DNA of 64,000 nucleotides, from positions 1-64,000 of the forward strand of contig JASMKZ010000003.1 in NCBI GenBank assembly GCA_030748955.1. The letters run 5' to 3'. A model generated the notes under the pieces. The model was not told the origin of the DNA and made no database searches. It worked only from the letters and a program-made list of their open reading frames with translations. The stretch comes from Fidelibacterota bacterium (GTDB taxonomy: Bacteria; Fidelibacterota; Marinisomatia; SCGC-AAA003-L08; D37C17). Numbering within the stretch: the first letter of the stretch is position 1; each line of letters opens with the position of its first letter. A program made the position numbers and the translations under genes. Below, in pieces: positions 579 to 27,378 of the stretch.

Positions 579-1043
579 ATGGATAATATGAGAAAAATAA
601 AGAATACTTATTACTCTGACTTTTTAAACAGTCAAGGTAAGCGTGTACGTAAAAGCTTGGGCAAGAAATTAGCTGAAGCTAAAATCAAGTTGGCTCAACT
701 ACAGGCTGATGTTGATATTGACAGTATAGCAAAGGATGAAGCTATGCCATCTCAGGGTAAGGTATTTAAGACTGCCTTGAATGAATTTATCTCTAGTGTA
801 TTTTCTAAGCATAAAATAGAAAATGCTTACGAGATCAAGAAAGGTGGCTGGAACTTAAAAACCCATAGACAACCCCAAGTAATAACCTCAACCCTTAAAA
901 ACTTTGAAGCTCATTCTGGTATTAAGAATGTTAAGGATGCTACCTTGCCCCAGATGTTAAAGTTTATAGCTGATGGTTCTAAACAGCATCTATCTGGCAC
1001 AGTTAATAAACACGGGCGATGGCAGTCTATCTTATTCATTTAA
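579..1043 (+). pseudogene. Truncated tyrosine-recombinase/integrase-like ORF (N-terminal/core-binding part only)
   Basis: 154 aa; 'YYSDFLNSQGKRVRKSLGKKLAEAKIKLAQLQ' resembles an integrase N-terminus. No catalytic R...HxxR...Y domain. Lies just downstream of a tRNA and overlaps the 3' end of gltB. Confidence 0.5.
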
Positions 1044-4000
1044 CAAAACTCCCATTCGATAGGATGCCTGTTGGTTATATATTTTATCTAGGTTTATGAT
1101 TTCCATGGCCTTAGGCACTATCTTGGAAAAATGAACTTTCTCCTTCTTCCATTTGGTAATAATATCTTCCGCAATATGCGATCCGGTATGAAAGCGGTGA
1201 CTTCTCAAAATACGTAAAATTAATAATTCATCGTCTTCATGTAGTTCTGTCGTTTTCACATAATTCTTATTTAAATTATCTAAATTACTTTTGGTTTTAG
1301 AATATAAAAAGGCAATACCTCCCGTCATCCCTGCACCAAAATTCTGCCCGATGCTATCCAGAACGATGATGGTCCCACGAGTCATGTACTCACATCCATG
1401 ATTACCAATTCCTTCAACCACCGCCGTTGCTCCGCTGTTACGAACAGCAAAACGTTCCCCTGCCCTGCCTGCAATATGAATTCTTCCACCTGTGGCACCA
1501 TATAAGGCAGTATTGCCAATAATAGTCATATTCTTACGCTTTTCCCGTACCTGTTTATCCAAACGGATGGTGATCAATCCGCCATTCATCCCTTTGCCTA
1601 CATAATCATTAGCGATCCCCTTTAGTCTAAGCTCAATACCATCCACCAAATAAGCCCCCATACTCTGCCCTGCAACTCCCGTCATTCGGTACTGAATATT
1701 CCCTTTAAATAACCCCTGCCCATGCAATTGAGATAATTCACCGGAGAGACGGGTGCCAATTGCGCGGTCGGTATTATTAACTACCCTTCGGAATACCGCT
1801 CTACCATGGGTCATAATTTCCAAGCGGTGCTCCTGAATTATGCGGTCATCTAACTGAGACTCCATTCGGCTTTTTACTAATTTGACTTTTACTGTGGAAG
1901 ACGGTTTGAGTTCATTGCGGTCACTGTGTATTAGAAACTGATTTAAGAGTACACGGTTGTTACAGGCTGATTTCTTGTATTTTGGGCTTAGTTCCAGTAA
2001 ATCCATCCTTCCCACAATATCACCCAATGAATGAATGCCGTTTTCTGCCAGGGTTTCCCGCACACCACTTGCAATATTATTCAGGTAATTGGCAATGTTT
2101 TCAGGAGTTCCTTTAAAACGCTGAATTAGGTCTAAATCCTGAGTTGCAATGCCTGTCGGACAGGTATTTTTCTGGCACTGCCGGACCATAATACAACCGA
2201 TGGCAATGAGAGCCGATGTACCAAAATCATATTCCTCCGCTCCAAGCAAAGAAGCAATAATTATATCATTGGGATATTTTATACCGCCATCAACTCTTAA
2301 TATCACCCTGTCTCTCAGGCCAGACTCCAAAAGGGTACTATGTACTTCTTTTAACCCAAATTCCCAGGGCATGCCCGTATGCTTGAGAGATCCCAGCGGA
2401 CTGGACCCAGTGCCACCTTCACCACCAGCTACTAAAATGATATCTGCTCCCGCTTTTACAACTCCACAGGCAATGATACCAATTCCAGGCTGTGCCACTA
2501 GTTTTACAGATACTGCTGATTTAGGATTTATCTGTTTTAAATCATAAATAAGCTGGGCTAAATCTTCAATACTATAAATGTCATGATGAGGCGGTGGTGA
2601 AATAAGAGGTACCCCCGGGGTGGTTCCCCGAGCATTTGCAATATATAGTGTGACCTTATTACCCGGCAGTTGCCCACCCTCTCCAGGTTTGGCTCCCTGT
2701 GCAATTTTTATCTGGATTTCCCTTGCTGCAGTGAGATAATCAGGAGTCACACCAAAGCGCCCGCTAGCCACCTGCTTTATATAGCAGTTTTCAGATTTAT
2801 CTGGATTTTGATGGGCAAAACGATCCGTGTGTTCTCCCCCTTCTCCACTATTGCTGCGAGCACCAACTAAATTAGCACCCTTGGCCAGAGTTCGATGGGC
2901 CTGTTCAGAAATTGCACCAAAAGACATGGCACCAAGTCCAACCCGCTTTAGAATTTTCCTAGAGCTTTCCACCTTTTCAATCGGCACACGTCCTTGTTTT
3001 TTTATCTGAAAATAATCCCGAATCATGATAGGCTGATAATCTTGAAATTCCAAGGCAGATAGATTATCAGCCAGGTTCTGTATTTTTTTAAAGTGCACCG
3101 GAGAATTGGCGTGCAATTCTCCATTTTTACGGTACTGAAAACGTCCATAAGAAGGAAGTTTGGTATCGATATTTCCAAATGCCAATGCATTTGCTTTTAA
3201 CTGTAGATTGTGCAGTGTTTTTATATTTGTGGTACCGGGAATGTTGATAATATAGGGGAAATATTTTTTCTGCAGCTGTTTAGATAATCCAATGCTATTA
3301 AAGAGCATACTGCCGTTATAACTGCTGAAGGTTGAAATACCCATTTTAGCCATGATTTTCAGTAGACCCTTTTCTACTGCATACCGGTAATTGGACATAT
3401 GGATAGCCCATTTTTCATTTTGGAATCTGTGGCGGATAATATCATAAGCTAAGTACGGGTAAACAGCACTAGCACCCATACCAAGCAGACAGGAAATTTG
3501 ATGTTCATCTACGACATCGGCAGTTATGGGAATAATGGAAACCCTGCTTCTATATTTTTTTTCAGCCAGATAATAATGCACAGCTGATACTACCAGCAAC
3601 ATGGGCACTGGGAGAAGATCTTGATTTAAATCTTCATCACTTAGAAATAAAATTCTGGTACCGTTTTTTACTGCCTTTTCACATTCTATGATAATTTCTT
3701 TTACTCTTTGTTCCAGTGAAATACTTTTTTCATACAAACAAGAAATCATCCGGTGATTAAATCTCCTGTGCTGCTTTTTCAATCGTTTTATATCAAGGGG
3801 AGACAAGATTGGGCTGGTGATACGAATTACACCTGAAAACCGGATTTCATCAGCCAGAATATTTTCTTCACTACCCAAGTATTTACATAAATTTGTTACC
3901 AATTTCTCCCGGATAGGATCAATGGGAGGATTGGTCACCTGTGCGAATGCCTGTTTGAAATAATCATATAGTTTTCGATTCACGGTTGACATTACTGCAG

Positions 4001-5507
4001 GCGGGGTATCATCCCCCATTGAACCGATAGGTTCTCTACCGCTATTTGCCATTGGGATGAGTACCTTCTGAATGGATTCTTCATCAAAACCAAAAGCAAT
4101 GGCCAGATGCTGAAAATATTTTTGCGGTGATTTTGACCAAGGCATAAATTCGTCTTCTGCCTTACTACGTTTAATTTTTATCATATTTTTTCTAATAAAA
4201 TCTGAATAAGGATAAGATTGCGCTATCTTTTGCTTAATCTCATCATTTTCAAATATGCCACTACCATCCAATGCCAAACTAAAAACCTCACCAGCGCTCA
4301 TATGGCGATGCTGTGCCAAGTCCTTTGGCTTGATATCAACCACCCCAGCTTCGGAGGCCATTATAACCAACCCATCTCTGCTAACAGTGTAACGAAGAGG
4401 TCGCAAACCATTCCGATCCAACTTGGCGCAAACATGATCTCCATCGGTGAAAACAAGTGCTGCAGGGCCATCCCAGGGTTCCATGAGATTCTCATGATAA
4501 ATGAAAAATCCCTTTAGGGATCGGGGCATTTTTGTATGATACTTGTAAGGATCAGGTATAAGCATCATGATGGCCTCTAACACGGTTCTTCCACTACGAG
4601 TGAGAAACTCCAGCACATTATCAAGGCTGAAAGAATCACTACCACCCATCCTGATAATGGGGTAAAGAGATTTTAAATCATTTTTCCAAAAAGAAGATTT
4701 GAGATTTTTCTCCCGAGCTTTCATCCACAGACGGTTGCCTTTAATCGTATTAATTTCTCCATTATGCGCCAGAAATCTGAAGGGCTGTGCCATCCACCAA
4801 TTGGAGACTGTATTGGTAGAAAAACGTTCATGAAAGATTGCAACACGTACCTTAAAATCAGAGTGGTTCAGATCATCATAAAACCTGTCCAATTGGTTTG
4901 CCCTCATAAGCCCCTTATACACAATTGTTTTAGATGAAAGTGAACAGAAGTGTATTTTTTCATGCCTATTATTTAATTTGTTCTCAATGCGTTTTCTGAT
5001 AAGATACAGCCGGGATTCTACTTTTTTAATCTTCCCTAGCTTAAGGCTGAAAAAATACTGTAAAATCGTTGGGCATGTTTCCAGAGCAGTTGGGCCTAGA
5101 CTAGAATTGTTTACTGGAACCTTTCTTTTTCCAATGTAATTGATTTTAAGCTTCTGACAGGAATTTTTTATTTCTTCTTCTGTGGTTGTTTGAAAATGTT
5201 TTGGGACAAACACCATTCCAATACCAAGAATTTCATCAGGCTTCAATTGAACATTAAATTTATCTTTTACTAAACCTGTAAAAAAAGGTACTGGAATATC
5301 TACAAGTACTCCTACACCATCACCAGTTTCTTCATCAGCACCAATAGCGCCCCTGTGTTGCATATTCTGCAATGCTTTAAATGAAAGCTCCAATACCCTT
5401 CTAGATGGATTTCCACTGGATTCAGCAATAAAACCAATACCACAGGCATCATGAAATTGATCTATTTTCGATAGTGAAAATTGGTTTTCTGATTCCATCT
5501 TATTCAT
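1032..5507 (-). CDS. gltB: Glutamate synthase large subunit
   Basis: 1491 aa; N-terminal HDACGIGFIAE..., FMN/Fe-S region GGEGGTGSSPLGSLKHTGMPWE...CPTGIATQDL, C-terminal GXGXG helix domain. Confidence 0.95.
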   Translation of the reverse strand: MNKMESENQFSLSKIDQFHDACGIGFIAESSGNPSRRVLELSFKALQNMQHRGAIGADEETGDGVGVLVDIPVPFFTGLVKDKFNVQLKPDEILGIGMVFVPKHFQTTTEEEIKNSCQKLKINYIGKRKVPVNNSSLGPTALETCPTILQYFFSLKLGKIKKVESRLYLIRKRIENKLNNRHEKIHFCSLSSKTIVYKGLMRANQLDRFYDDLNHSDFKVRVAIFHERFSTNTVSNWWMAQPFRFLAHNGEINTIKGNRLWMKAREKNLKSSFWKNDLKSLYPIIRMGGSDSFSLDNVLEFLTRSGRTVLEAIMMLIPDPYKYHTKMPRSLKGFFIYHENLMEPWDGPAALVFTDGDHVCAKLDRNGLRPLRYTVSRDGLVIMASEAGVVDIKPKDLAQHRHMSAGEVFSLALDGSGIFENDEIKQKIAQSYPYSDFIRKNMIKIKRSKAEDEFMPWSKSPQKYFQHLAIAFGFDEESIQKVLIPMANSGREPIGSMGDDTPPAVMSTVNRKLYDYFKQAFAQVTNPPIDPIREKLVTNLCKYLGSEENILADEIRFSGVIRITSPILSPLDIKRLKKQHRRFNHRMISCLYEKSISLEQRVKEIIIECEKAVKNGTRILFLSDEDLNQDLLPVPMLLVVSAVHYYLAEKKYRSRVSIIPITADVVDEHQISCLLGMGASAVYPYLAYDIIRHRFQNEKWAIHMSNYRYAVEKGLLKIMAKMGISTFSSYNGSMLFNSIGLSKQLQKKYFPYIINIPGTTNIKTLHNLQLKANALAFGNIDTKLPSYGRFQYRKNGELHANSPVHFKKIQNLADNLSALEFQDYQPIMIRDYFQIKKQGRVPIEKVESSRKILKRVGLGAMSFGAISEQAHRTLAKGANLVGARSNSGEGGEHTDRFAHQNPDKSENCYIKQVASGRFGVTPDYLTAAREIQIKIAQGAKPGEGGQLPGNKVTLYIANARGTTPGVPLISPPPHHDIYSIEDLAQLIYDLKQINPKSAVSVKLVAQPGIGIIACGVVKAGADIILVAGGEGGTGSSPLGSLKHTGMPWEFGLKEVHSTLLESGLRDRVILRVDGGIKYPNDIIIASLLGAEEYDFGTSALIAIGCIMVRQCQKNTCPTGIATQDLDLIQRFKGTPENIANYLNNIASGVRETLAENGIHSLGDIVGRMDLLELSPKYKKSACNNRVLLNQFLIHSDRNELKPSSTVKVKLVKSRMESQLDDRIIQEHRLEIMTHGRAVFRRVVNNTDRAIGTRLSGELSQLHGQGLFKGNIQYRMTGVAGQSMGAYLVDGIELRLKGIANDYVGKGMNGGLITIRLDKQVREKRKNMTIIGNTALYGATGGRIHIAGRAGERFAVRNSGATAVVEGIGNHGCEYMTRGTIIVLDSIGQNFGAGMTGGIAFLYSKTKSNLDNLNKNYVKTTELHEDDELLILRILRSHRFHTGSHIAEDIITKWKKEKVHFSKIVPKAMEIINLDKIYNQQASYRMGVLLNE

Positions 5508-5550
5508 ATATTACATTAGTTGTAGATCTTGTTAAAAGCATCCTTTTCAA

Positions 5551-5634
5551 TTAAACTAGATAAGTCATAAGGATAGAGGGAGAATTATAAAGAAACCTTT
5601 GGAGGAGCTGATAATAATACGCAAGGCAATCCAT
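5551..5634 (-). CDS. Possible 27-aa small ORF between ilvE and gltB
   Basis: MDCLAYYYQLLQRFLYNSPSILMTYLV*, preceded on the minus strand by AAAAGGAGATTGGGGGGG-ATG (SD-like). Confidence 0.3.
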   Translation of the reverse strand: MDCLAYYYQLLQRFLYNSPSILMTYLV

Positions 5635-5697
5635 CCCCCCCAATCTCCTTTTGACTTAACATAAATGTTTACTTTCTCTTTTTTTATTTTTTTTAAA

Positions 5698-6666
5698 TTA
5701 TATATCATAAATTTTTAATTCCTTAGATTTTGAACAATGATTATTATAAGAAGTATATGTTAGCCAATTATTATATATTTTTATCTTTCCATGTACAATA
5801 TCTAAATATAGCCTTTGCAATTTTTTAGTTAAAGGACCAGGCTTACCATTGTTAATTATGAGTCCATCTACAATACTGATTGGCGTAACTTCGCTTGCAG
5901 TTCCAGTAAAAAATGCTTCATCTGCATTAAATAGTTGTTCTAAAGATAATCGGCATATATTGACATTAATATCATTATTTTTAGCTAATTGAATAATTGT
6001 ATCTCTGGTAATACCCATCAAGATACTAGAATCTTCAGTATTGGTAAAAAGCTCACCATCTTTTACTAAAAATATATTTTGACCTGCACCTTCAGCGATT
6101 GTACCCTCTTGGTTGAGTAGCAATGCTTCATCATACCCTTTATCCTTTGCATCACGCACTGCCAAAAGGGAGTTCAGATATTGCCCACAGGCTTTGGCTG
6201 TTGTCGGAAATGAAGATGAATGAAACTTTTTCCATGGAGAGATAGTCACGCTTATACCATTTTTCAATGCATCCTGCCCTAAATATGCACCCCAGTAAAA
6301 TGCTGCTATGGATACAGTAATAGGACATTCTTTAGGATGTATAGCTAGAGAATCATAGCTATAAAAAGCAATTGGACGAATATATCCATTATCAATATTA
6401 TTATGCTGGACCAGATCCAAACAGCCTTGTTTAATCTCTTCGAAAGAGTAAGGTATATCTATTTTATATACTTCTGCTGATGCATATAATCGGTTTATAT
6501 GACTATCTAGTTTGAATAAAGCAGGACCCGAGTGCGTTTTGTAACATTTAATCCCTTCGAAAACACCACTTCCATAATGAAGGGCATGAGACATTACATT
6601 AGTTGTAGCCTTATTGAAAGGCATAATTTCTCCATTGAACCAGGTTAAATCACAATGATTAGACAT
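5698..6666 (-). CDS. ilvE: Branched-chain amino acid aminotransferase
   Basis: 322 aa class IV aminotransferase (SHALHYGSGVFEGIKCY, EGAGQNIFLVKDG, FFTGTASEVTPI). Confidence 0.93.
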   Translation of the reverse strand: MSNHCDLTWFNGEIMPFNKATTNVMSHALHYGSGVFEGIKCYKTHSGPALFKLDSHINRLYASAEVYKIDIPYSFEEIKQGCLDLVQHNNIDNGYIRPIAFYSYDSLAIHPKECPITVSIAAFYWGAYLGQDALKNGISVTISPWKKFHSSSFPTTAKACGQYLNSLLAVRDAKDKGYDEALLLNQEGTIAEGAGQNIFLVKDGELFTNTEDSSILMGITRDTIIQLAKNNDINVNICRLSLEQLFNADEAFFTGTASEVTPISIVDGLIINNGKPGPLTKKLQRLYLDIVHGKIKIYNNWLTYTSYNNHCSKSKELKIYDI

Positions 6667-8290
6667 AATTCTTTATTTTTTCATTTTTGTTGGCTGATTG
6701 AATTATTTGTTGAGATTTTAATAATTTATAATTAAAACTATCTTGTAAAGCTTGCCAACTTGCCTCAATTATATTTTCGGAGACACCAACTGTTGACCAG
6801 CTATTAAGTCCATCAGAACTCTCTATTAGAACTCTAACTTTAGATTCCGTGCCATGTTGTCCATTAAGCACTCTTACTTTATAATCAGTCAATTTCACAT
6901 CTTTTAATTCAGGATAAAACCGCTGTAATGACTTTCTAAGGGCGCAACTAAGGGCATTAACAGGTCCGTTGCCATCTGCAATAGTATGCTCTATTTCATC
7001 ATTAACCTTAATTTTTAACATCGCATCTGCCTGACGATGACCAAATTGATCATAATTTATATTGATACGAGAATCAATTACCTCAAAATACGGAGTGAAT
7101 CTTTCTAATGCTTCCAGCATCATTAATTCAAAAGATGCATCAGCAGCTTCATATTGATACCCTTCATTTTCAAGCATTTTTATTTTCTGCGCCAATTGTC
7201 TTGGTAATGTTTTATCGTTTCCTAGAGCAATGTTTAATTCAGCAGCTTTATAACTAATATTACTTTGTCCTGAAAGATCAGATACCAGTACACGCTGTTT
7301 GTTACCTACCAACATAGGATCAATATGCTCATACATTGTACTATTTTTCATTACAGCACTAACATGAATCCCCCCTTTATGTGCAAATGCTGATTTGCCT
7401 ACAAAAGGTGCCTGGTCATCTGCATGCATATTCATGGTTTCATATATAAAATGGGTAAGAGAAACTAAATTTTCAAGTTTTAAAGAAGTCTTAGTTTCCC
7501 GCTTCATTTTCAATAGCAGGTTTGGAATTACAGTTCCCAGACTTACATTGCCACAGCGTTCACCTACCCCATTAAAGGTACCCTGGACATGGGAAGCCCC
7601 AGCATTAACAGCTGCCAGCGTATTGGCAACAGCCAAGCCACCATCATTATGTGCATGTATACCTACCTGTGTTTTAAATTTATCTATAATGCATTTTGTG
7701 GCGTTACTAATATTATGTGGTAAAGAGCCCCCATTGGTATCACACAAGACAATTGTCTCTGCACCACCTTCAATTGCAGCTTGTATCATCATTAAGGCAA
7801 ATTCAGGGGATTCATTATAGCCATCATAAAAATGTTCTGCATCAAAAATCACCCTTCTTCCAGCTTTTGCTAATAACTCTACCGATCTGAAAATAACCTC
7901 AGCATTTTCATCTGCTGATAATCCCAGACCTTTCTGAGAATGCAATGACCATGCTTTACCAAAAATAGTGACAATTTCAGTTTCAGCTTTCAGAAGTTCC
8001 TTAAGATTAGAATCTGTAGCTACAGTTTTAGGGGATCGTGCCGTTGACCCAAATGCTGCGATACATGCCTGTTTTAGTGTTAGTTCATTTTTTGAACGTT
8101 TAAAAAACTCCATATCTCGGGGATTGCTTCCAGGCCATCCTCCCTCAATAATATTAATGCCAAATTCAGCTAAACGGGCGGCAATATTCAGTTTATCATC
8201 TACAGATAAATTTACACCTTCACCTTGGGTACCATCTCGCAAGGTCGTATCAAACAGTTCAATTGATTTAAGTATTTTTCGCTGTGTCAT
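6659..8290 (-). CDS. cimA: (R)-citramalate synthase
   Basis: 543 aa; [45 protein letters not shown] is the CimA-type variant of the LeuA family, with a C-terminal regulatory domain. Confidence 0.88.
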
Positions 8291-8931
8291 AATGATCTAA
8301 ATAACCAGGGATTTGCATCCCTATGTTTTTTCTCAAATTTTTTAATAATATCTGTATGGGTAAGGGTCTGTCCAATTTCATCTAAACCTCCCAGCAGTGC
8401 ATCTTTACGAAATTTTTCAATTTCAAAATATATCCTTGTATCCAATGGATCTGCAATAATCTGCGCTTCAAGGTCAACCGTCAGCGTATATCCGGGTTTT
8501 GCCAAAGTTAGTTCAAAAAGTGAATTAATGATCCCTTCTGTTAAACAAATTGGGAGGATCCCATTTTTAAAACAATTATTGTAAAATATATCAGCATAAC
8601 TCTCCGCAATAATTACTCTGAATCCATAATTATCCAATGCCCAAGGTGCATGCTCACGACTTGAACCACAGCCAAAATTTGAACGGGTAAGAAGAATCCC
8701 TGAATTCATATATCTTTTCTGATTCAGGACAAAATCAAGATTCAACGGCCGGTTACTGCAATCCTGCCCCGGCTCACCATGATCTAAATACCGCCATTCA
8801 TCGAACAAATTATCACCAAACCCACTACGGTTTATTGACTTTAAGAACTGCTTCGGAATGATGGCATCTGTATCTACATTATCCCGGTTTAACGGTGCTA
8901 TAACTCCAGTAAATGTTTTAAATCTGTCCAT
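8287..8931 (-). CDS. leuD: 3-isopropylmalate dehydratase small subunit
   Basis: 214 aa; [32 protein letters not shown]. Confidence 0.95.
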
Positions 8932-8933
8932 AA

Positions 8934-10334
8934 TTAATTATCCAAATATTTTGATACATTTGTGAAGTGTCCCTCTATAGCTGCTGCCGCTGCCATGATA
9001 GGGCTTACTAGATGTGTACGCCCGCCTTGACCTTGACGTCCTTCAAAATTTCGGTTTGATGTTGATGCACAGCGTTCACCCGGTTCTAAATAATCCGCAT
9101 TCATGGCAAGACACATGGAACAACCTGGTTCTCGCCATTCAAATCCAGAATCAATAAATATTTTATCTAACCCTTCTTCTTCTGCTTGTTTCTTTACCGG
9201 TCCAGATCCTGGAACAACAAGGGCCAACTTAATACTATCTGCTATCTGCTGTCCTTTAAGTATATTTGCAGCCAACCGAAGATCTTCAATCCGTGAGTTT
9301 GTGCAGGATCCAATAAATATTTTATCTAGATGTATATCTTTAATTGCGGTGCCTGAAGTTAAACCCATATAATCCAATGCTGCATCAATTGTGCTAGAGT
9401 TTCTATTATCAGAAATAGGTATTGTACCGCTTACTTCCGTAACCATTTCGGGTGATGTCCCCCAGGTAACCATGGAGTTAATTGATGAAGCATCAATCTG
9501 AATTACTTTATCAAATATTGCGTCACTATCACTTTTCAGATTTTTCCATGATGAAACTGCTTTTTCCCATTCATTTGCAGTAGGTGAAAATGGTCGACCT
9601 TTAATATAATCTATTGTGACTTGATCGACAGCTATCATTCCCGATCGGGCACCTGCTTCAATAGCCATATTACAGATTGTCATTCGACTTTCCATGCTCA
9701 GGTTTTGAATAGCTTCACCAGAAAATTCAATGGAAAATCCTGTGCCACCTGCTGTTCCGATTTGTCCTATAATATACAGTATCATATCTTTTGCTGTCAC
9801 ACCTATATTGAGTTTTCCATTTACAGAGATGAGCATGTTTTTTGATTTTTTCTGTATCAGGCATTGAGTAGCTAAAACATGTTCTACTTCAGAGGTTCCG
9901 ATCCCAAAGGCTAAAGCTCCCAAAGCACCATGAGTGGAGGTGTGGGAATCTCCACAAACTATAGTCATACCAGGAAGGGTCAAGCCTTGTTCAGGTCCTA
10001 TCACATGAACGATCCCTTGATTGGGATCTGACATAGAAAACTCTTTAATACCAAAATCAGCGCAATTTTCTGAAAGCGTATCCACTTGTACATTTGAAAC
10101 AGGGTCTGTAATACCTAAATGTCGATCCTTTGTTGGGATATTGTGATCCGGAACCGCTACATTAGCTGATTGTCGCCAGCTCTTACGTCCTTCTAAACGT
10201 AATCCCTCAAAGGCTTGTGGTGATGTTACTTCATGAATAAGCTGTCTATCAATGTAAATTAAGCTGGTACCTGAAGTGTCTTCACGTACAAGGTGAGAAT
10301 CCCATAATTTGTCGTATAATGTTTTCCCTGCCAT
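8934..10334 (-). CDS. leuC: 3-isopropylmalate dehydratase large subunit
   Basis: 466 aa; [59 protein letters not shown]. Confidence 0.96.
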
Positions 10335-10346
10335 ATTTGTATTTCC

Positions 10347-11921
10347 TTATGCTGCTGAGATATTTTCAAAAAGTGTACCAACATCCTGTACGTACACATA
10401 ATTATTTAGTGCCTGGAGGTAGGCTAGGACACTAGCTTCAATAGTATCGGTTGATATCCCTCTTCCAGTATAGGTTCCAGTTTCAGAGCGAAGTCGTACC
10501 GTTACCTCACCTTGAGCATCTTTACCTCCAGTAACAGAGCGAACCTGGTAATGTTCCATGGTCAGTGAATCCTTCAGGTTTATACTGCGTTTAATTGCAC
10601 GTATACATGCTGCCACTGGACCATCACCTGTAGATGATTCTTCTACTATTTGCCCGTCAAATGCAATCCGTACTGATGCTGTGGGGATGACACTGGTCCC
10701 AATATTAACATGTAAATATTCTAGAGTAAAATAACCGTTTTGATTTTTACTATCATCGCCCATGAGAATGCGCAAGTCCTCATCAAAAACTTCTTTCTTT
10801 TTATCTGCCAGTTCCAGAAAACGATGATATATATTATCCATTTGTTCGTCAGAAAGAATATATCCCAACATTTCTAATCTTGAAGTCAAACCGTGACGAC
10901 CTGAATGACGACCCAATACAATTTTATTTTGGGTAATCCCTACTGATGCTGGGGTCATAATTTCATAGGTATCCCTTTTCTTGAGAACGCCGTCCTGATG
11001 TATGCCAGATTCATGTGCAAAGGCATTTTCACCCACAATTGCTTTATTGGGTTGTATCAACATTCCTGTGAAACCGGTTACCATTTGACTGGTATTATAT
11101 AATTGCTCAGTATTAATATCAGTATAATAATCCCAGTAATCAGAGCGTACTTTTAAAGCCATGACAATTTCTTCAAGGGATGCATTCCCAGCACGTTCAC
11201 CAATTCCATTAATGGTACATTCTATCTGGCGTGCACCGACACTTATTGCACTAAGTGAGTTGGCAACTGCCAAGCCCAGATCATTATGGCAATGAACACT
11301 GATCACCGCCTGATCAATATTGCTTACACGTTGTTTAATTTCACCGATCTTCTTGCTAAATTCCTGAGGAATAGTATAACCCGTTGTATCTGGAATATTT
11401 ATTGTTGTGGCACCAGCTTCAATGACAGCTTCAGTAATTTCTGATAAAAAACCAATATCTGTACGACCGGCATCTTCTGGAGAAAATTCAATATCATCAG
11501 TAAAAGATTTAGCATAGGTAACAGCTTCACAGGCCATTTGCATAATAGTAGACTGCTTTTCTTTGAGATTATATCCATATCGAGAGTCGCCGAATTTTCC
11601 AGTAATATGAATATCAGAAGTGCCTATAAAGATATGAATGCGTTTACGGGGAGCATTCATCAGAGCCTCACCAGCTGCTTTTATATCATTATCAATGGAA
11701 CGGGCCAAACCGGTAATAATAGCATCAACAGAATCAGCAATTTGTTGAACCGCATCGAATTGCGCCTGTGATGAAACAGGGAATCCAGCTTCAATTACAT
11801 CTACATTCAAATTAGCCAGTTGATGGGCGATCTCCACCTTTTCAAATACATTTAAAGAAGCTCCAGGAGATTGCTCTCCATCGCGCAGTGTGGTATCAAA
11901 AATTATTATTTTTTCACTCAT
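10347..11921 (-). CDS. leuA: 2-isopropylmalate synthase
   Basis: 524 aa; [37 protein letters not shown]-terminal regulatory domain. Confidence 0.95.
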
Positions 11922-12655
11922 TAGTTTCCATTCAATCCATTAATTCCTATACTATCACTCGTGTGAAGTCCACATTCAGTTTTATCCGATTCCTTCCAAC
12001 GCCCAGAACGATCATCACCACCAGGACAAACAGGACTGGTGCACTGTTTACAGCCAATACTGGGATAGCTATTGTCATGTAGAGGGTTGTATGGTAGATT
12101 ATATTTTTTTATGTAGTTCCAAACTTCATCATGAGACCAGTTGATAAGAGGATTAATCTTAATTACTTCAAAACGGGATTCAAACTCAATAAGATCTGAT
12201 TGATTTCGAATCTTCGTCTGTTTCTTCCGAATACCGGTAATCCAAAAATTATATTTTTTCAGTGCATTTTTTAGTGGAATCACTTTTCTTATACTGCAAC
12301 AGCTATCTGGATTTTTTTTCCATAGTTTTTCACCATAGATTTCTGCCTGATTTTCAGGGGTTAATTCTGTTGAAAATCGTAAGAATTCAAATCCATATTT
12401 TTTCTGTAGTTTATCTCTTAGTTCATATGTTTGATCAAATAAAAAACCAGTATCAATATAAAATACAGAAATATCACGGGTTTCCCTCAATAGCATATCA
12501 AGTAGGACAATCCCTGGAGGACCAAACCCTGTTCCCATTACTATTTTATTAACTGGTAAGTTCTTCTTTATCCACCTCAATAAGGCTGCAGGATTATTCC
12601 TGCAACTATTTATTTCATTAGTTTGCACTTGATGAAATGCATGTTTAAGTTCCAT
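11921..12655 (-). CDS. cysH: Phosphoadenylyl/adenylyl-sulfate reductase family protein (APS-reductase-like)
   Basis: CCSIRK, GCKQCTSPV and ECGLH motifs. The track starts at 12673 with GTG, but ATG 12655 follows GGAGGAAGG, so the likely true start is 12655. Confidence 0.85.
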   Translation of the reverse strand: MELKHAFHQVQTNEINSCRNNPAALLRWIKKNLPVNKIVMGTGFGPPGIVLLDMLLRETRDISVFYIDTGFLFDQTYELRDKLQKKYGFEFLRFSTELTPENQAEIYGEKLWKKNPDSCCSIRKVIPLKNALKKYNFWITGIRKKQTKIRNQSDLIEFESRFEVIKINPLINWSHDEVWNYIKKYNLPYNPLHDNSYPSIGCKQCTSPVCPGGDDRSGRWKESDKTECGLHTSDSIGINGLNGN

Positions 12656-12740
12656 ATATTTTCCTTCCTCCACCCCTTTATAATTTTTCCCTTAATATAT
12701 TTATGAAATTGTTATCATATGATAGATCTTTGCATTTACT

Positions 12741-13850
12741 CTATGCATTAATGAATTCCGTTTCATCAACTTTCTTATTTTCTATCTTCATGGATTCGAT
12801 AATTTTCGCAGTCATCTCTGTAGTTGATAAAATATTATCTTCTATTTTGGCTACTTCTGCAGTGCGGTAACCCGATGCTAATACAGATTCTATTCCTGTT
12901 TTTACAGACTGAGCAGCATGAGAATGTTTACAAGTTATCTCCAATAGCATAGCAACAGAGGCAATCATAGCAATAGGGTTGGCAATATTTTGACCTGCAA
13001 TCTCCGGTGCAGTTCCGTGAACTGGCTCATATAGCGCGTACTTTTCACCCACTGATGCTGAAGGGAGCATCCCTAAACTACCTGTTATCATGGCCGTTAT
13101 ATCACTGAGAATATCACCAAACATATTTTGGGTAACAATTATGTCAAATTGTTTGGGATCACGCACTAACTGCATTGCCGCATTATCCACATACATTTCA
13201 TCCAGCATTACATCAGAGTAAGTCTTATGAACATCTGCAACTACATTTTTCCAGAATTGTGAACTCTCCAACACATTAGCTTTATGCACGGAGGTAACCT
13301 TACCGTCCCTTAGCCTGGCTAATTCAAAAGCCGTTTTTGCAATACGTTCAACTTCTGTGCGAGTATAACGTAGTGTATTCCAACCTTCATTATCATCTAT
13401 TCCCCGAGGGGATCCAAAGTAAATACCCCCAGTAAGTTCGCGAACAACCATGATATCTGCACCTTGGATCACTTCTGGTTTCAAAGATGATGCATCTACT
13501 AAGCTGGGATAGATAGTAGCTGGTCTCAAATTTGAATAAAGCTCTAGGGCTTCGCGGAGTTGCAATAATCCTTTTTCAGGCTTCTGATCCTGAGGAAGAC
13601 TGTCCCATTTTGGACCACCAACGGCACCTAAAAGTACTGCATCAGAATCTTTGCAGGCTGCTATCACCTCATCAGTAATTGGTGAACCAGATTCATCAAT
13701 GGATGAGCCACCTACTAAATAAGAATCGTATTGAAATGACAAATTATATTCTTGACCAACAGTTTCGAGTACTGACAGTGCAGATTTCATTACTTCAGGG
13801 CCAATTCCATCTCCGGGAAGTATAGATAGTTTATAGGATTCGGTCACCAT
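12741..13850 (-). CDS. leuB: 3-isopropylmalate dehydrogenase
   Basis: 369 aa; ILPGDGIGPEVM, VVRELTGGIYFG, HGTAPEIAGQNIANP. Confidence 0.95.
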   Translation of the reverse strand: MVTESYKLSILPGDGIGPEVMKSALSVLETVGQEYNLSFQYDSYLVGGSSIDESGSPITDEVIAACKDSDAVLLGAVGGPKWDSLPQDQKPEKGLLQLREALELYSNLRPATIYPSLVDASSLKPEVIQGADIMVVRELTGGIYFGSPRGIDDNEGWNTLRYTRTEVERIAKTAFELARLRDGKVTSVHKANVLESSQFWKNVVADVHKTYSDVMLDEMYVDNAAMQLVRDPKQFDIIVTQNMFGDILSDITAMITGSLGMLPSASVGEKYALYEPVHGTAPEIAGQNIANPIAMIASVAMLLEITCKHSHAAQSVKTGIESVLASGYRTAEVAKIEDNILSTTEMTAKIIESMKIENKKVDETEFINA

Positions 13851-14894
13851 TTATAGATTCTCCGGACGTAATTTGCGAAGTTGCTGTCCAGCAATCCACA
13901 TCTCCTGATTTTTCACTTCCTCTAATTCAACTTCTAAATTTTCTCGATAATCAATCTTTGAATTAGACTCTATAGATATTTTAGCTTCATTTCCATTGAG
14001 GACATTTTGATAACAGTCTTCAATAACCGGTTTTAAGGCTTTATGAAATTTCGGCGCCCAATCAAGTGCACCTCGTTGCGCTGTGGTTGAGCAATTTGCA
14101 TACATCCAATCCATTCCATTTTCTGAAACCAAAGGATATAAACTTTGTAATGCTTCCTCAATAGTTTCATTATATGCTTCAGAAGGTGAATGCCCATGTT
14201 CACGTAAAACCTCAAATTGAGCAAGAAATGCGCCTTGAAGCAACCCCATGAGCACACATCGCTCACCAGTGAGGTCACTGTGAACTTCTTTTTCAAATGT
14301 TGTCTCAAATAGGTGTCCAGATCCGATAGCAAACGCAGTAGCGATACAACGATCTCGAGCATTACCAGTATAATCCTGATGAACTGCAAATGATGAATTT
14401 ATACCTCTACCTGCTTGAAAGTGAGTTCGTACAGTTAATCCACTCCCCTTTGGTGCAACTAAGATAACATCAATATCTTCTGGGGGTTCAATTTTTGTTT
14501 GCTCATTAAAAACAATTCCAAATCCATGTGAAAAATACAATGCATTACCCGGAGACAAATTTTCCTTCACCGTTTGCCAAGCGTGTATTTGGCCTGCATC
14601 AGAAAGCAAGAATTGAATTATAGTTCCTCTTTTTACTGCTTCTTCTATTTCAAAAAGATTTTCACCAACTACCCAACCATCAGATAATGCTTTTTCCCAA
14701 CTACTACCTTTGCGAAGTCCCAAAATAACATTAAACCCCTGATCTCGCATATTAAGGCTTTGGCCACTTCCCTGTGGCCCATAACCCAAGATTGCAGTAA
14801 CTTCCTTAGCTAAGATATCTCTACACCTTTCGAGAGGATAATCGGACCTTTCTATTATGTCTTCTAAATAACCATTAATGTTAATCTTTTTCAT
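13851..14894 (-). CDS. ilvC: Ketol-acid reductoisomerase
   Basis: 347 aa; AILGYGPQGSGQSLNMRDQGFNVILGLRKGS, LSPGNALYFSHGFGI, DLTGERCVLMG. Confidence 0.92.
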   Translation of the reverse strand: MKKININGYLEDIIERSDYPLERCRDILAKEVTAILGYGPQGSGQSLNMRDQGFNVILGLRKGSSWEKALSDGWVVGENLFEIEEAVKRGTIIQFLLSDAGQIHAWQTVKENLSPGNALYFSHGFGIVFNEQTKIEPPEDIDVILVAPKGSGLTVRTHFQAGRGINSSFAVHQDYTGNARDRCIATAFAIGSGHLFETTFEKEVHSDLTGERCVLMGLLQGAFLAQFEVLREHGHSPSEAYNETIEEALQSLYPLVSENGMDWMYANCSTTAQRGALDWAPKFHKALKPVIEDCYQNVLNGNEAKISIESNSKIDYRENLEVELEEVKNQEMWIAGQQLRKLRPENL

Positions 14895-14906
14895 CTTTCC
14901 CCTTTC

Positions 14907-15473
14907 CTACGAGTTAAAATAGCTAATTATTTTTTTTTCAGCCCAATGGGCAGCATCTTCTTGACTTTCACTAACAATATTATCAGAATCTTGGGATACC
15001 CCAATTCGCATTGCTATTTTTCCTGTTCTCATGATCTCTTTGATGTTAAATTGACTCAAGTTTTCAATAAGTTCTGTTATAGCTTTTTCTTCTCCTGCAG
15101 CTTCTATAATTACAGAGCCTTTCCCCATATCTACAATTCGTGCACCATTGTTTTTAGTCACTTCACCAATGGAACTCCACTTTCCAGAACCAGCATGAAT
15201 TTTAATGAGAACATACTCTCTGTTAATACAGGGAAGACTTGTTATATCCTCAACGGAGATTACATTGACCAAATTTAATAAATTAAAATATATATTCCCG
15301 CGTTTGGTAGAATCTGGTTCATTTGCAACAATAGTCATCCTGCTGATTCCAGGCGTTTCACTAGATCCCACAACTAAACTTTCAATATTAAAGTTTCGCC
15401 GTCTAAACATACTTGATATACGGTTGAGTATACCCGGTTTGTCATCAACCAGGACCACGAGTGTTTGCTTCAT
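14907..15473 (-). CDS. ilvN: Acetolactate synthase small (regulatory) subunit
   Basis: 188 aa ACT-domain protein (VLVDDKPGILNRISSMFRRRNFNIESL) overlapping ilvB. Confidence 0.93.
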   Translation of the reverse strand: MKQTLVVLVDDKPGILNRISSMFRRRNFNIESLVVGSSETPGISRMTIVANEPDSTKRGNIYFNLLNLVNVISVEDITSLPCINREYVLIKIHAGSGKWSSIGEVTKNNGARIVDMGKGSVIIEAAGEEKAITELIENLSQFNIKEIMRTGKIAMRIGVSQDSDNIVSESQEDAAHWAEKKIISYFNS

Positions 15474-17224
15474 TTAACTGCCTCCTCTTTAACTTGTTTT
15501 AATATATCGGAATTATTGTTATATGGTCGGTATATCATCTGATGCAGATCTGCACCAGATGGAACCATTGGATATACCATATCATGCTGTTCTACAACAA
15601 ATTCTATAAGTGATGGGCCATTAACATGCTGTGCTTGTTTCATAGCTGGTAATATTTCATCTATATGGGTTACTCTTTGCCCTGAAAGACCATAGGCTTC
15701 AGAAACTTTTACATAATCAGGACTGGAAATTGGTGTTTCAGCATAACGGGCATCGTAGAACATTTGCTGCCATTGACGGACCATTCCAAGATAACCATTA
15801 TTTATAATTGCAATGTTTATATTTACATGCTCTTGAACGGCTGTGGCCAGTTCCATAATGGTCATTTGTATGCTTCCATCACCAACAATTATCCACACTT
15901 CCTTGTCTGAACCGTAAAAACTGGCGCCTATACCTGCAGGAAGGCTGAACCCCATTGTGCCAAGGCCTCCTGAGGTAATTAGCGTTCGAGGTTTTTCATG
16001 ATTAAAATACTGTGCTTCCAACATTTGGTGCTGTCCAACATCTGTAACTACAATGGCATCACCTTTGGTACCTTCCCATATCTTACGTATAACTTGTGCA
16101 CCCATCAGAGTTGTAGAACCTGTTTTGATTATGTCTCTTTGATGCGAATCCTGTTGCCAGATTGATATACTCTTAAGCCAACTCCTATGATTGTTTTCCC
16201 GAATTTGTGGATTTAGTGCTTTTAAAAATATTTTAACATCACAATGGACCGGCAGATCAACATGTACATTTTTATTAAATTCTGATAAATCAATATCGAT
16301 ATGGATTTTCTTGGAATGAGGGGAATAAGTCTTCAAATTACCTGTAACCCTATCATCAAATCTCATGCCACAGGCAATAATAAGATCGGCTTCCTGAATG
16401 GCTCGATTTACCCATGCTTCACCATGCATGCCCATCATACCTAAAACTAAAGGGTGGCTATCTGGAACACTCCCAATTCCAAGGAGTGTTGTTGCAATTG
16501 GAACCCCACTTTTTTCAGATAATTCAATAATTTCAGAAGAGGCGCCGGAAAGCAGTACGCCATGACCAGCAAAAATGATTGGTTTTTTTGCATCATCAAT
16601 CAGTTCAACTGCCGACTTAACTTGGTTTTCCAGTGGAGACTGTGGTAAATAATAACCAGGCAATTCAATTCTGGATGTGGGATATACGAATTCTATAGAT
16701 TCATTTTGAACATCTTTTGGTATGTCAATAAGAACAGGTCCAGGGCGCCCGGTTTTAGCTACATAAAATGCCTCATGAATCGTTGATGCCAATTCTCTAA
16801 TGTCCATAATCAGATAACTATGTTTTGTAATTGGCATGGCGATACCACTTATATCTATCTCCTGAAACGCATCAGAACCAATAACAGATCTTGAAACTTG
16901 ACCTGTTATACAGACAATAGGGGAAGAGTCCATCATAGCTGTGGCTAAGCCTGTAATCATATTTGTAGCGCCAGGTCCAGATGTCGCTATGGCTACCCCC
17001 ACTTTTCCACTGGCTCGAGCATATCCATCAGCCATATGTGTTGCTCCCTGTTCATGACGAGTAAGTACATGATGAATTTGATCTTTATATTTAGTGAGCG
17101 CATCATATGCCGGTAAAATGGCCCCGCCCGGATATCCAAATACAACAGACACTTTTTCTTGTAAAAGGCATTCCCAAATAATTTCTGCCCCAGTTAATAC
17201 TTTTTTTGAAGTAGAATTACCCAC
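15470..17224 (-). CDS. ilvB: Acetolactate synthase large subunit
   Basis: 584 aa ThDP enzyme; VFGYPGGAILPAYDAL, GPGATNMITGLATAMMDS, GDGSIQMTIMELATA. Confidence 0.95.
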   Translation of the reverse strand: MGNSTSKKVLTGAEIIWECLLQEKVSVVFGYPGGAILPAYDALTKYKDQIHHVLTRHEQGATHMADGYARASGKVGVAIATSGPGATNMITGLATAMMDSSPIVCITGQVSRSVIGSDAFQEIDISGIAMPITKHSYLIMDIRELASTIHEAFYVAKTGRPGPVLIDIPKDVQNESIEFVYPTSRIELPGYYLPQSPLENQVKSAVELIDDAKKPIIFAGHGVLLSGASSEIIELSEKSGVPIATTLLGIGSVPDSHPLVLGMMGMHGEAWVNRAIQEADLIIACGMRFDDRVTGNLKTYSPHSKKIHIDIDLSEFNKNVHVDLPVHCDVKIFLKALNPQIRENNHRSWLKSISIWQQDSHQRDIIKTGSTTLMGAQVIRKIWEGTKGDAIVVTDVGQHQMLEAQYFNHEKPRTLITSGGLGTMGFSLPAGIGASFYGSDKEVWIIVGDGSIQMTIMELATAVQEHVNINIAIINNGYLGMVRQWQQMFYDARYAETPISSPDYVKVSEAYGLSGQRVTHIDEILPAMKQAQHVNGPSLIEFVVEQHDMVYPMVPSGADLHQMIYRPYNNNSDILKQVKEEAVK

Positions 17225-18897
17225 TATTGAAGTACGGCTCCTGAATTTGCTGAAGTTACCATGCGAGTATAGCGTCCCAAATAGCCATGTTTAATTTTTT
17301 GCTTAAATGGTTTTAGATCTTTCATTCGTTTGCTAAACTCATTTTCGCTTATATTTAATTCGATTGTCCGATTAGGGATGTCGATTGATATCGAGTCACC
17401 TTCTTGAACGATAGCGATGGGACCTCCTGCAGCAGCTTCCGGTGAAATATGTCCCACACAGGCCCCCCGTGTCCCTCCAGAAAAACGTCCATCGGTAATA
17501 AGGGCGACAGAATCACCTAAACCCATGCCCATAATATTGCTGGTTGGAGCCAGCATTTCAGGCATGCCCGGTCCACCTTTAGGGCCCTCATATCGTATTA
17601 CAACTATATCACCTGGCTGAACCTTTTCACCTAGAATACCTTTTGCTGCATCTTCCTGGGATTCATAAATACGTGCAGGACCGGTATGGACTTTCATATT
17701 TTCACATACTGCCGCAGTTTTGACAACTGAACCCTGCGGGGCAATATTGCCAAAAAGAACTGCCAAGCCGCCCTCTTTTGAAAAAGGGTTATCTACAGAT
17801 CTAATAATTTCTGGTGAGAGATTCTTAGCCTCTGCAATTACTTCACCCAGATTAAAGCCCGAAACAGTTGGACGACTGAGATCTAACACATCTTGTTTAA
17901 CTGAAAGTTCTTTTAAGATAGCTGATATACCACCAGCATTATTCACATCTTCCATATGGACAAATTTAGTAGCTGGACTAACTTTGCAGAGATAAGGTGT
18001 CTTGCAACTAATTTCATTAAGGTCCGCTAAATCAAATTTGATTTTAGCTTCATTGGCCACAGCTAAAGTATGCAGAACAGTATTGCTACTGCCACCCATA
18101 GCCATATCAAGGGCAAAGGCATTTAGTATGGATTCCTTGGTGACAATATCACGTGGCTTTAAATCATCATGAATCAGACGAACAATCGCTTCACCTGCTT
18201 TTTTTACTAAATCTAATCTCTTGGGATCTACGGCTAAAATTGAACCATTTCCAGGCAACGCCATACCTAATACTTCTAACAGGCAATTCATGGAATTGGC
18301 GGTAAACATTCCAGAACATGACCCGCAAGTTGGGCAGGCATTTTCTTCGAGTTCTTTTAACTCATCCGCTTTAATTTTTCCAGCCTGATGTTGGCCAACC
18401 CCTTCAAATACAGAGATCAAGTCCACCTTTTTGCCGCTACTTGTTACCCCGGCTTTCATAGGTCCACCGGATACAAAAATAGTTGGGATATTTATGCGCA
18501 TTGCTGCCATAAGCATTCCAGGAACAATTTTATCACAATTAGATATACAAACTAGCCCATCAAGGCAATGGGCTTCAGCCACCGTTTCAATACTGTCAGC
18601 GATCAGCTCACGACTAGCCAATGAATAACGCATTCCGATATGACCCATGGCAATACCATCATCAACACCAATTGTATTGAATTCAAATGGTAGACCACCT
18701 GCTTCACGAATTGACTCTTTTGCGACTGTTCCAAATTTCTGAAGATGAACATGCCCAGGAATTAAATCAATATATGAATTGGCGACACCAATAAAAGGTA
18801 GGTCAAAATCTGAATCTTTACGAATAATTCCCGTTGCATGCAAAAGACTGCGGTGCGGTGCTCGTTCTATTCCTTTTTTTATTTGATCAGATCTCAT
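17224..18897 (-). CDS. ilvD: Dihydroxy-acid dehydratase
   Basis: 557 aa; [54 protein letters not shown]. Confidence 0.96.
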
Positions 18898-18985
18898 TTA
18901 TCTCTACATAACTCATTCAATGACAAAAATACAGTATCTATCTAAGTCAGTGATTGCATCTTGAATCAGGTATTAATATTTATTG

Positions 18986-19060
18986 GGTGAAATGTGAGTT
19001 TCACCTTGCCTAACACCTGATTTAAATATGCTTCTAAATAATCAGGTGATCGGCAAGGTG
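18986..19060 (-). promoter_or_regulatory. Candidate BCAA attenuator: two overlapping hairpins upstream of ilvD
   Basis: Minus-strand RNA. Hairpin A: CACCTTGCC(19060-19052)+CACCTGATT(19048-19040) pairs with AATCAGGTG(19022-19014)+GGCAAGGTG(19010-19002). Hairpin B: GGTGAAA(19005-18999) pairs with TTTCACC(18992-18986). They share 19005-19002. A further ACCTGATT copy lies at 18971-18964. Confidence 0.7.
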
Positions 19061-19158
19061 ATCACTAGAATCAGTACGATTATAATAATCGAATACAAAC
19101 TAGGAGATAACAGACTTACATATTGCAATATATTAATATTTCGATTATCGTAATGCAT
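19042..19158 (-). CDS. Putative BCAA leader peptide (38 aa), ilvL-like
   Basis: ATG...TGA read on the minus strand: MHYDNRNINILQYVSLLSPSLYSIIIIVLILVITLPIT*. Ten consecutive Ile/Val/Leu codons; the stop lies inside hairpin A. Start codon choice uncertain; no strong SD seen. Confidence 0.65.
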   Translation of the reverse strand: MHYDNRNINILQYVSLLSPSLYSIIIIVLILVITLPIT

Positions 19159-19184: not shown

Positions 19185-20345
19185 TTAAGAAGCAGCATGA
19201 ATAACTTCACCTACTCCCTGATTAAGGTTAAATTTAAATTTTTCTACATTAATCTTAGGCTCATGCCAAACACCATAATTCCCAGACATAATTAGTTTCT
19301 GAATATAGCTCTGAGTAAGTGCATCTGTAGAAATATTATCATAATATCTAATATCAATTTTGGCACCATTTCCTGTTATTGCACCTAATAATGCTGAAAG
19401 GAACGTTTGCCTATTTTCAGTATCAGTATTTATTTTACAGAAACCAGCCTCAATTAAACTCTCTATCTGGTCCCAGTCCGTACCTACGAATTCCTGCCAT
19501 TTTGTAATTACACCGTTGGTATTTTTTAACATTTTTAATTTATCAACAGCATATTCTACAATATTTGGATAAAGTGTTGATGCACCGTGAGCAACAAAAA
19601 CCAGCTCATCATTTATTTTATTTGCTAAACCAAGTAGTTCATGTGCAAGCGCAATATTCAGTTTAACTTTTTGACCGGGTTTCCCTTTATTAGGTCCATG
19701 CATCGTACCAATTGTTGGTGCTAACATAAGCACTCCAGTTTCATTCAAAAATTGCTCCAGTTCATCGGCGTTGGTATATGTTGAAAATTCAGACTTTGTA
19801 TCTTCATCTTCTTCACCTGCCAACACTCCCAATTCACCTTCTACTGATAATCCCAATGGGTGAGCCATATTGACAACCTCACGTGTTAGATCGATATTGT
19901 CTTTTAATGGCATGGCTCTTTTATTGATGTGGTCGGTAGAGTTATCAGCCATAACACTTGTTAAATATCTTATGGAAGATTGCAAAACTTTTCGACCCGG
20001 CTCTGTGATATAATCACCATGATCCAAATGAGTTGCTATCTTTACCGATGTTCGGTGTGCTTTTTTCTCAATATATCCGGAAAGTAGTTCTAATGCAAAA
20101 GTCTGATCACCATCACCAATATGTTTAAGAGCAGAGTTTGAAAATGCTAGCAATCCTGAAGATCCTAATAATTCGCAGGCTTTGATCACAGCATTTATTC
20201 CTTGAAATGTAGTTACATTAAAAGCTGGAACAGCATAACGTGTAGATTTTGAATTTCCCTTTTCACCCCTTTTTGCTTTCAACAATAAGGTATGGGCATT
20301 GACCATATTGTCAGGAAATTTTCTATCTTTATTTAATATTATCAT
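19185..20345 (-). CDS. fba: Class II fructose-bisphosphate aldolase
   Basis: 386 aa; YAVPAFNVTTFQGINAVI, KIATHLDHGD, VEGELGVLAGEED, FVAHGASTLYPNIV, CKINTDTENR. Confidence 0.92.
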   Translation of the reverse strand: MIILNKDRKFPDNMVNAHTLLLKAKRGEKGNSKSTRYAVPAFNVTTFQGINAVIKACELLGSSGLLAFSNSALKHIGDGDQTFALELLSGYIEKKAHRTSVKIATHLDHGDYITEPGRKVLQSSIRYLTSVMADNSTDHINKRAMPLKDNIDLTREVVNMAHPLGLSVEGELGVLAGEEDEDTKSEFSTYTNADELEQFLNETGVLMLAPTIGTMHGPNKGKPGQKVKLNIALAHELLGLANKINDELVFVAHGASTLYPNIVEYAVDKLKMLKNTNGVITKWQEFVGTDWDQIESLIEAGFCKINTDTENRQTFLSALLGAITGNGAKIDIRYYDNISTDALTQSYIQKLIMSGNYGVWHEPKINVEKFKFNLNQGVGEVIHAAS

Positions 20346-26965: not shown

Positions 26966-27000
26966 GTACGGGCCTGTGTGTGCTACTCACAGACCCGTAC
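26966..27000 (-). promoter_or_regulatory. Stable intergenic RNA hairpin between glnB and thrA
   Basis: Minus strand GTACGGGTCTGTG / CACAGGCCCGTAC: 13-bp stem with one G-U pair. On the plus strand that pair is a C-A mismatch, favouring minus-strand RNA. No U tract follows. Confidence 0.6.
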
Positions 27001-27024
27001 TTGGAGAAACCAACATGAAGAACG

Positions 27025-27369
27025 TTATCCTATTGCTTTTGTCCCCGTTTCACCGGATCTAATGCGGATGCATTCGTCTATTGGAAGAACAAATATTTTA
27101 CCGCGGCCTTTGTCACCATCCTTTTTAGCCACTGTAGTAATCGATTCAATTACAGCATCTACAAACTCATCATTAACCGCTATTTCCAGTCGTACCTTAT
27201 TTAGCAATTTAATTTCATGGGCAACCCCTCTGTATACTTCCTGCAAGGGATATTCTACTCCCTGTCCCTTAGCATTGGTTACCGTAAATTTGTAGATTTT
27301 TCTCTTTAAGAGCTCTTCCTTAATTTCTGGAAGCTCTTCTGGTTGAATGACTGCAATAATTAATTTCAT
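27025..27369 (-). CDS. glnB: Nitrogen regulatory protein P-II family
   Basis: 114 aa; MKLIIAVIQPEELPEIKEEL...GDKGRGKIFVLPIDECIRIRSGETGTKAI; adjacent to amt. Confidence 0.9.
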   Translation of the reverse strand: MKLIIAVIQPEELPEIKEELLKRKIYKFTVTNAKGQGVEYPLQEVYRGVAHEIKLLNKVRLEIAVNDEFVDAVIESITTVAKKDGDKGRGKIFVLPIDECIRIRSGETGTKAIG

Positions 27370-27378
27370 AATTGTCTC

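Follow-up and report, generated by a model that had tools for sequence, protein, structure and literature searches.

Probable attenuation without a terminator upstream of ilvD

Attenuation by leader peptides is usually equated with a U-tract terminator, and genome scans seek that terminator. Searches of this kind miss systems such as the terminator-less leader described here, which is found upstream of ilvD in a Fidelibacterota bacterium. What does this leader sense, and how does it act on the operon behind it? The sequence under study is a stretch of 64,000 nucleotides from contig JASMKZ010000003.1 (the window, to which all positions refer). The ilvD gene (17224-18897, minus strand) is the first of 12 same-strand genes with few gaps, and is followed co-directionally by ilvB, ilvN, ilvC, leuB, cysH, leuA, leuC, leuD, cimA, ilvE and gltB (1032-17224, minus strand). 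The gene content agrees with the preliminary description of the locus, which had announced a 12-gene operon for branched-chain amino acids (BCAA) and glutamate downstream of the leader.

The leader ORF (19158-19042, minus strand) encodes a peptide of 38 amino acids, MHYDNRNINILQYVSLLSPSLYSIIIIVLILVITLPIT*, and ends with a TGA stop codon at 19044-19042. Like the other gene starts, leader starts and promoters considered here, its start is a prediction; it lies about 26 nt past the stop of fba, the gene for class II fructose-bisphosphate aldolase (19185-20345), and no clear Shine-Dalgarno sequence is present upstream of the leader ATG. The end of the ORF is separated from ilvD by 144 nt, which places the leader directly ahead of its cognate biosynthetic operon. 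Translation bears out the ten consecutive Ile/Val/Leu codons that had been reported for this ORF, namely ATT ATT ATA ATC GTA CTG ATT CTA GTG ATC (19089-19060). This is the longest I/L/V run among the 1053 ORFs of 15-80 amino acids in the window. The short ORF is thus rich in codons for the products of the operon, and this property is kept in its counterparts, which are found in those relatives of the window's class whose sequence ahead of ilvD is readable.

Two mutually exclusive folds

Folding of the leader RNA yields two mutually exclusive structures, termed S1 (1:2 pairing) and S2 (2:3 pairing), with all segments on the minus strand. In S1, TCACCTTGCC (19061-19052) forms 10 bp with arm 2b, GGCAAGGTGA (19010-19001), and arm 1b, CACCTGATT (19048-19040), which holds the leader stop codon, forms 9 bp with arm 2a, AATCAGGTG (19022-19014). 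Arm 1a as a whole, GTGATCACCTTGCC (19065-19052), lies within the end of the leader ORF and begins at the last two regulatory codons. It contributes the extra pairing of GTGA (19065-19062) with TCAC (18997-18994), so that the two-part hairpin of 18 bp that had been noted at the leader 3' end is present, but slightly longer than thought.

In S2, arm 2 and the linker upstream of it (19031-19010) pair with arm 3a and the outer arm, TTAATACCTGATTCAAGATGC (18976-18956), around an inner hairpin of GGTGAAA (19005-18999) and TTTCACC (18992-18986). Arm 2a is common to S1, where it pairs with 1b, and S2, where it pairs with 3a, and arm 2b overlaps the 5' arm of the inner hairpin. The latter is the second hairpin (19005-18986) of the preliminary description, which had correctly placed it over the 3' arm of the first hairpin, and had also foreseen that a further repeat copy could compete for pairing. 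The third ACCTGATT copy (18971-18964) indeed pairs with AATCAGGT. Since this copy and the second hairpin nest in S2 (19031-18956), they are parts of one structure.

The ribosome was modelled by trimming the RNA, and was imagined upstream for S1 and on the stop codon for S2, so that the dependence of the folds on ribosome position is a modelled one. In these states, both folds are about five standard deviations more stable than dinucleotide shuffles (z = -5.1 for S1, z = -5.0 for S2). The Rfam covariance models, including those for riboswitches, T-boxes and ilv-associated motifs, gave no match at gathering score to the ilvD leader of the window or of 14 relatives. The idea that the leader belongs to a known RNA family was rejected, as the weak cmscan matches were to plant and animal miRNA hairpins and far below the gathering score.

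Conservation and covariation of the leader

Wherever the region upstream of ilvD is readable in relatives of the window's class, it holds an I/L/V-rich leader that ends 111-166 nt ahead of the gene. The nucleotide sequences of these leaders differ greatly. In a set of 40 leaders from the window's class and family f30, the mean z against shuffles is -2.9 for S1 and -1.8 for S2. The preliminary description had made its reading depend on the conservation of the I/V/L run and the stem pairing in close relatives, and both recur upstream of ilvD across the class. Two of the genomes (G039 and G040) carry two ilvD copies each, and every copy has a leader of its own.

Covariation was assessed for 14 alignable relatives, using blocks (1a, 1b, 2, 3a and an element D) that were chosen by eye from the sequence alignment; the 3a block of one leader (L126), misaligned by MAFFT, was placed by hand. 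Compensatory changes are seen for both folds. The S2 helices (2a:3a and 1b:D) show two-sided changes at 8 of the 15 pairs, and their covariation score is 0.384, compared to 0.182 for shuffled controls and at most 0.12 when the blocks are slid. For S1, 90.9% of positions are paired, four pairs are changed on both sides, and the score is 0.153 against 0.115 for shuffled controls. The lower variation of S1 is expected, because its arms are located inside coding sequence. A helix equivalent to that of arm 1b is present in the 14 relatives. The outer helix of S2 is built differently in the window, from the linker that follows arm 1b instead of arm 1b itself, and element D differs accordingly. Taken with the composition of the peptide, these data make it very probable that the leader is a two-state sensor of BCAA.

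Similar ilvD leaders without a U-tract also occur in MAGs labelled Bacteroidetes and CSSED10-310 (L023, L024 and L029), and the terminator-less type may be wider than Neomarinimicrobiota.

Absence of an intrinsic terminator

An intrinsic terminator, that is a GC hairpin with a U-tract, is missing ahead of ilvD. In the window, no U-tract follows the S2 hairpin. The earlier caution that the second hairpin has no evident U tract was correct, and applies to nearly all of the class. A terminator further downstream, or at the start of ilvD, was considered and rejected, because none was found in the window. A terminator score of dG <= -11 is reached by 3 of the 40 leaders of the class and f30 (L011, L016 and L119, none of which is clearly a terminator) and by 22 of the 22 ilvD leaders in the other lineages of the phylum, counts that are not independent, as several leaders come from closely related genomes. 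In those other lineages, a C-rich arm, for example CCCCTTCC, pairs with the 3' end of the leader, and its alternative partner gives rise to a terminator with a U run upstream of ilvD.

The same simple scan was applied to the trpE and hisG leaders of the class and f30. A U-tract terminator was found for 13 of the 14 trpE leaders (with a Trp-rich leader detected in 11), and a His-rich leader together with a U-tract terminator for 11 of the 13 hisG leaders. At the two exceptional hisG loci, the scan seems to have taken the wrong ORF. With U-tract terminators retained at trp and his in these lineages, the ilvD exception is specific and does not reflect a general habit. Judged from sequence, the ilvD leader appears to have given up intrinsic termination.

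Textbook trp attenuators, with a YYSWYWFF-type leader and a U-tract terminator, are represented by L231-L239 and L241-L244, and textbook his attenuators, with HHHH-type leaders, by L218-L225, L227, L228 and L230. For trpE of the window genome itself (L240), the scan found neither leader nor terminator. At convergent gene ends, U-tract hairpins are present in 5 of 10 cases in the window genome, compared to 2% in shuffles from a small background set, and in 25-38% of cases in f8 genomes. The one f3 genome tested showed no enrichment.

Proposed mechanism and sign of control

We infer that the ilvD leader is a ribosome-mediated attenuator for the ilvD-gltB operon, which senses Ile, Val and Leu and has an OFF step other than intrinsic termination, and we regard the chances of this complete scheme as even. 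When Ile, Val or Leu is scarce, a ribosome would stall within the I/V/L run, and arms 1a and 1b would be left free to pair with arm 2 (S1). Within the run, Ile, Val and Leu codons first occur at 19089, 19077 and 19074, which is 28, 16 and 13 nt upstream of the TCACCTTGCC arm. With at least 13 nt in between, a stall at these codons should leave both arms free. When supply is ample, the ribosome would reach the stop codon in arm 1b and cover arm 1, so that arm 2 would pair with arm 3 (S2), in a long hairpin that ends about 58 nt upstream of the ilvD ATG. S1 is taken as the ON state and S2 as the OFF state. S2 would most likely cause pausing or termination that depends on a protein factor (Rho with NusG/NusA) instead of a U-tract. 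Rho is encoded in 167 of the 171 genomes of the class, including that of the window (G000:C222, above the curated cut-off). Whether the output is indeed factor-dependent at the level of transcription is, in our judgement, evenly balanced.

We slightly favour S1 as the ON state, by comparison with how the trp and his attenuators of these lineages, and the canonical ilvD leaders found elsewhere in the phylum, are laid out. From a reading of peptides and terminators, the trp leaders have several codons between the Trp codons and a G-rich stretch that can pair with the C-rich arm of the terminator. A stalled ribosome should therefore leave that arm free. This order is shared by the canonical ilvD leaders of the phylum. 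The window leader fits it as well, which by analogy argues for S1 as the ON state.

The same sensor could also operate with the opposite sign, which we consider rather unlikely. The C-rich, G-poor segment 3 would then be a Rho loading site that is exposed in S1, making S1 the OFF state, and a late stall would mask arm 1a, favour S2, hide the segment and turn expression on. A ribosome halted on the last two regulatory codons, which reach into arm 1a, would shift the balance towards S2. The exposure of segment 3 in S1 would fit a Rho-dependent OFF state in S1 rather than in S2, which pairs the segment and has a strongly covarying outer helix. By C>G bubble and YC counts, many relatives rank with the highest 10% of background 5' regions, and several f8 members are extreme. 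The window, however, is no outlier: its rut-like C>G signal is unremarkable, as 17% of the background 5' regions, a small set, score as high. The C-richness of arm 3 also results from the need to pair with the purine-rich arm 2, and the spacing between the first hungry codon of each type and the TCACCTTGCC arm suggests that most stalls should leave this arm free.

Family f3 bears on both the sign and the level of control. In three loci of f3, a family of the same taxonomic order (L006, L008 and L014), freed region 3 is predicted to form a hairpin that abuts the ilvD Shine-Dalgarno sequence (z of 2.6-5.4 against shuffles). In the models, the 2:3 state thus looks like the ON state in this family, contrary to the sign that we prefer, and the three leaders may be translational in output. 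High scores for an effect of region 3 on the ribosome binding site (RBS) are likewise seen in two individual leaders, L108 and L126. A translational attenuator, in which one fold hides the ilvD RBS as in the actinobacterial LEU element, could be imagined for the window as well, and the topAI/toiL system shows that such control can precede Rho termination (PMC12121999). For the window leader this is improbable, since the opening energy with region 3 free is not above that with region 3 shuffled (z = -0.6), and RBS accessibility across leaders shows no consistent difference between the S1 and S2 states. The idea that element D pairs with the ilvD start codons was dropped, as it failed a permutation test (p = 0.085) and was not seen by eye in the window. 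According to the folding models, RBS occlusion is not supported for the window, but plausible in f3.

It could further be argued that the leader is an ordinary attenuator with intrinsic termination, which functions despite a poor U tract. S2 forms a strong, well-placed hairpin, and terminators with weak U tracts that are assisted by NusG/NusA occur in other bacteria. Yet in 37 of the 40 leaders of the class and f30, strong hairpin and good U tract do not occur together, whereas perfect examples of the combination are retained at trp and his in these lineages, and we see little room for this explanation. Finally, AT-rich DNA yields many I/L-rich ORFs, but a functionless coincidence of ORF and hairpins is hardly credible for the longest I/L/V run of 1053 small ORFs, with fold z values around -5, covariation in relatives, and a constant position upstream of ilvD across the class.

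We lean somewhat towards a BCAA attenuator that extends across the window's class of Neomarinimicrobiota, in which the covarying two-state sensor has been kept and intrinsic termination has been replaced, by a factor-dependent step in most families and by a translational one in f3, while the trp and his attenuators are still classical.

Relation to known systems

The preliminary description had likened the layout to attenuation in enterobacterial ilv operons. This is apt for the sensing part, with its leader peptide and competing, covarying hairpins, but not for the output, because the U-tract terminator is missing. Like the enterobacterial ilvGMEDA, ilvBN and leu attenuators, the ilvD leader has an I/V/L-rich peptide and alternative hairpins with a common arm ahead of a cognate operon. 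In contrast to them, arm 1 consists of the last part of the leader ORF, stop codon included, the first gene is ilvD, and the phylum is a different one. The ilvD leaders of other Neomarinimicrobiota lineages (f23 and f26-f29; L132-L156) share the leader peptide upstream of ilvD and the regulatory codons just ahead of an arm formed by the leader 3' end. However, 2:3 pairing gives them a classical U-tract terminator (in 22 of 22), and their arms have the opposite purine/pyrimidine polarity. In staphylococci, which belong to the Firmicutes, a leucine-rich attenuator peptide is likewise located upstream of ilvD of an ilv-leu operon, but there the conserved terminator has a poly-U (PMC5794164).

Amino acid leader peptides without a terminator have been proposed before, for the cys leaders and the LEU element of Actinobacteria. 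Rho was suggested to act at the cys leaders, whereas in the LEU element Leu codons pair with the leuA Shine-Dalgarno sequence (PMC1262725), a type of pairing that is not supported here. The toiL-topAI switch of E. coli senses antibiotics. Stalling on its uORF changes RNA structure, the output is Rho-dependent, and RBS occlusion has been proposed (PMC12121999). The ilvD leader resembles it in the proposed coupling of stalling to RNA structure and Rho, with the difference that Rho output is a hypothesis here and RBS occlusion is unsupported. A literature search of mainly open-access papers found no description of such a leader in Marinimicrobia/Neomarinimicrobiota.

The ilvD leader can thus be regarded as a new variant form of ribosome-mediated attenuation, the sensing part of which is well supported. 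It allows different outputs of a single sensing principle to be compared in nature, since the classical trp and his attenuators are present in the same lineages. It is also a candidate regulator of BCAA synthesis, amenable to testing, in little-studied marine bacteria from a phylum in which a strong ilvD match is present in only 32 of 94 genomes (>=90% completeness, low contamination).

Genomic context

Misbinning of the contig was rejected as a simple explanation. The pyruvate kinase of the window is closest to genomes of the same genus, and the nearest named genome match of IlvD is in a Candidatus Neomarinimicrobiota MAG. The contig therefore belongs to its genome. Across 22 other genomes of the window's family, no match was found for ilvD, leuA or the window-type fba. 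In the window, these genes are part of an amino acid island (thrA-asd-ppc-fba-leader-ilvDBNC-leuB-cysH-leuACD-cimA-ilvE-gltB, 1032-26921), which from genome comparison seems special to the window species. IlvD is closest to that of another family of the class (f18, 75%). Loss elsewhere and gain by transfer are both possible histories of the island.

Within the BCAA operon, cysH (PAPS reductase, 11921-12673) is found between leuB and leuA. Just ahead of thrA, a small ORF resembling PII proteins (GlnB/GlnK) was identified by eye (about 27000-27370, minus strand), and is followed by a near-perfect inverted repeat, GTACGGGTCTGTG...CACAGGCCCGTAC, also recognized by eye.
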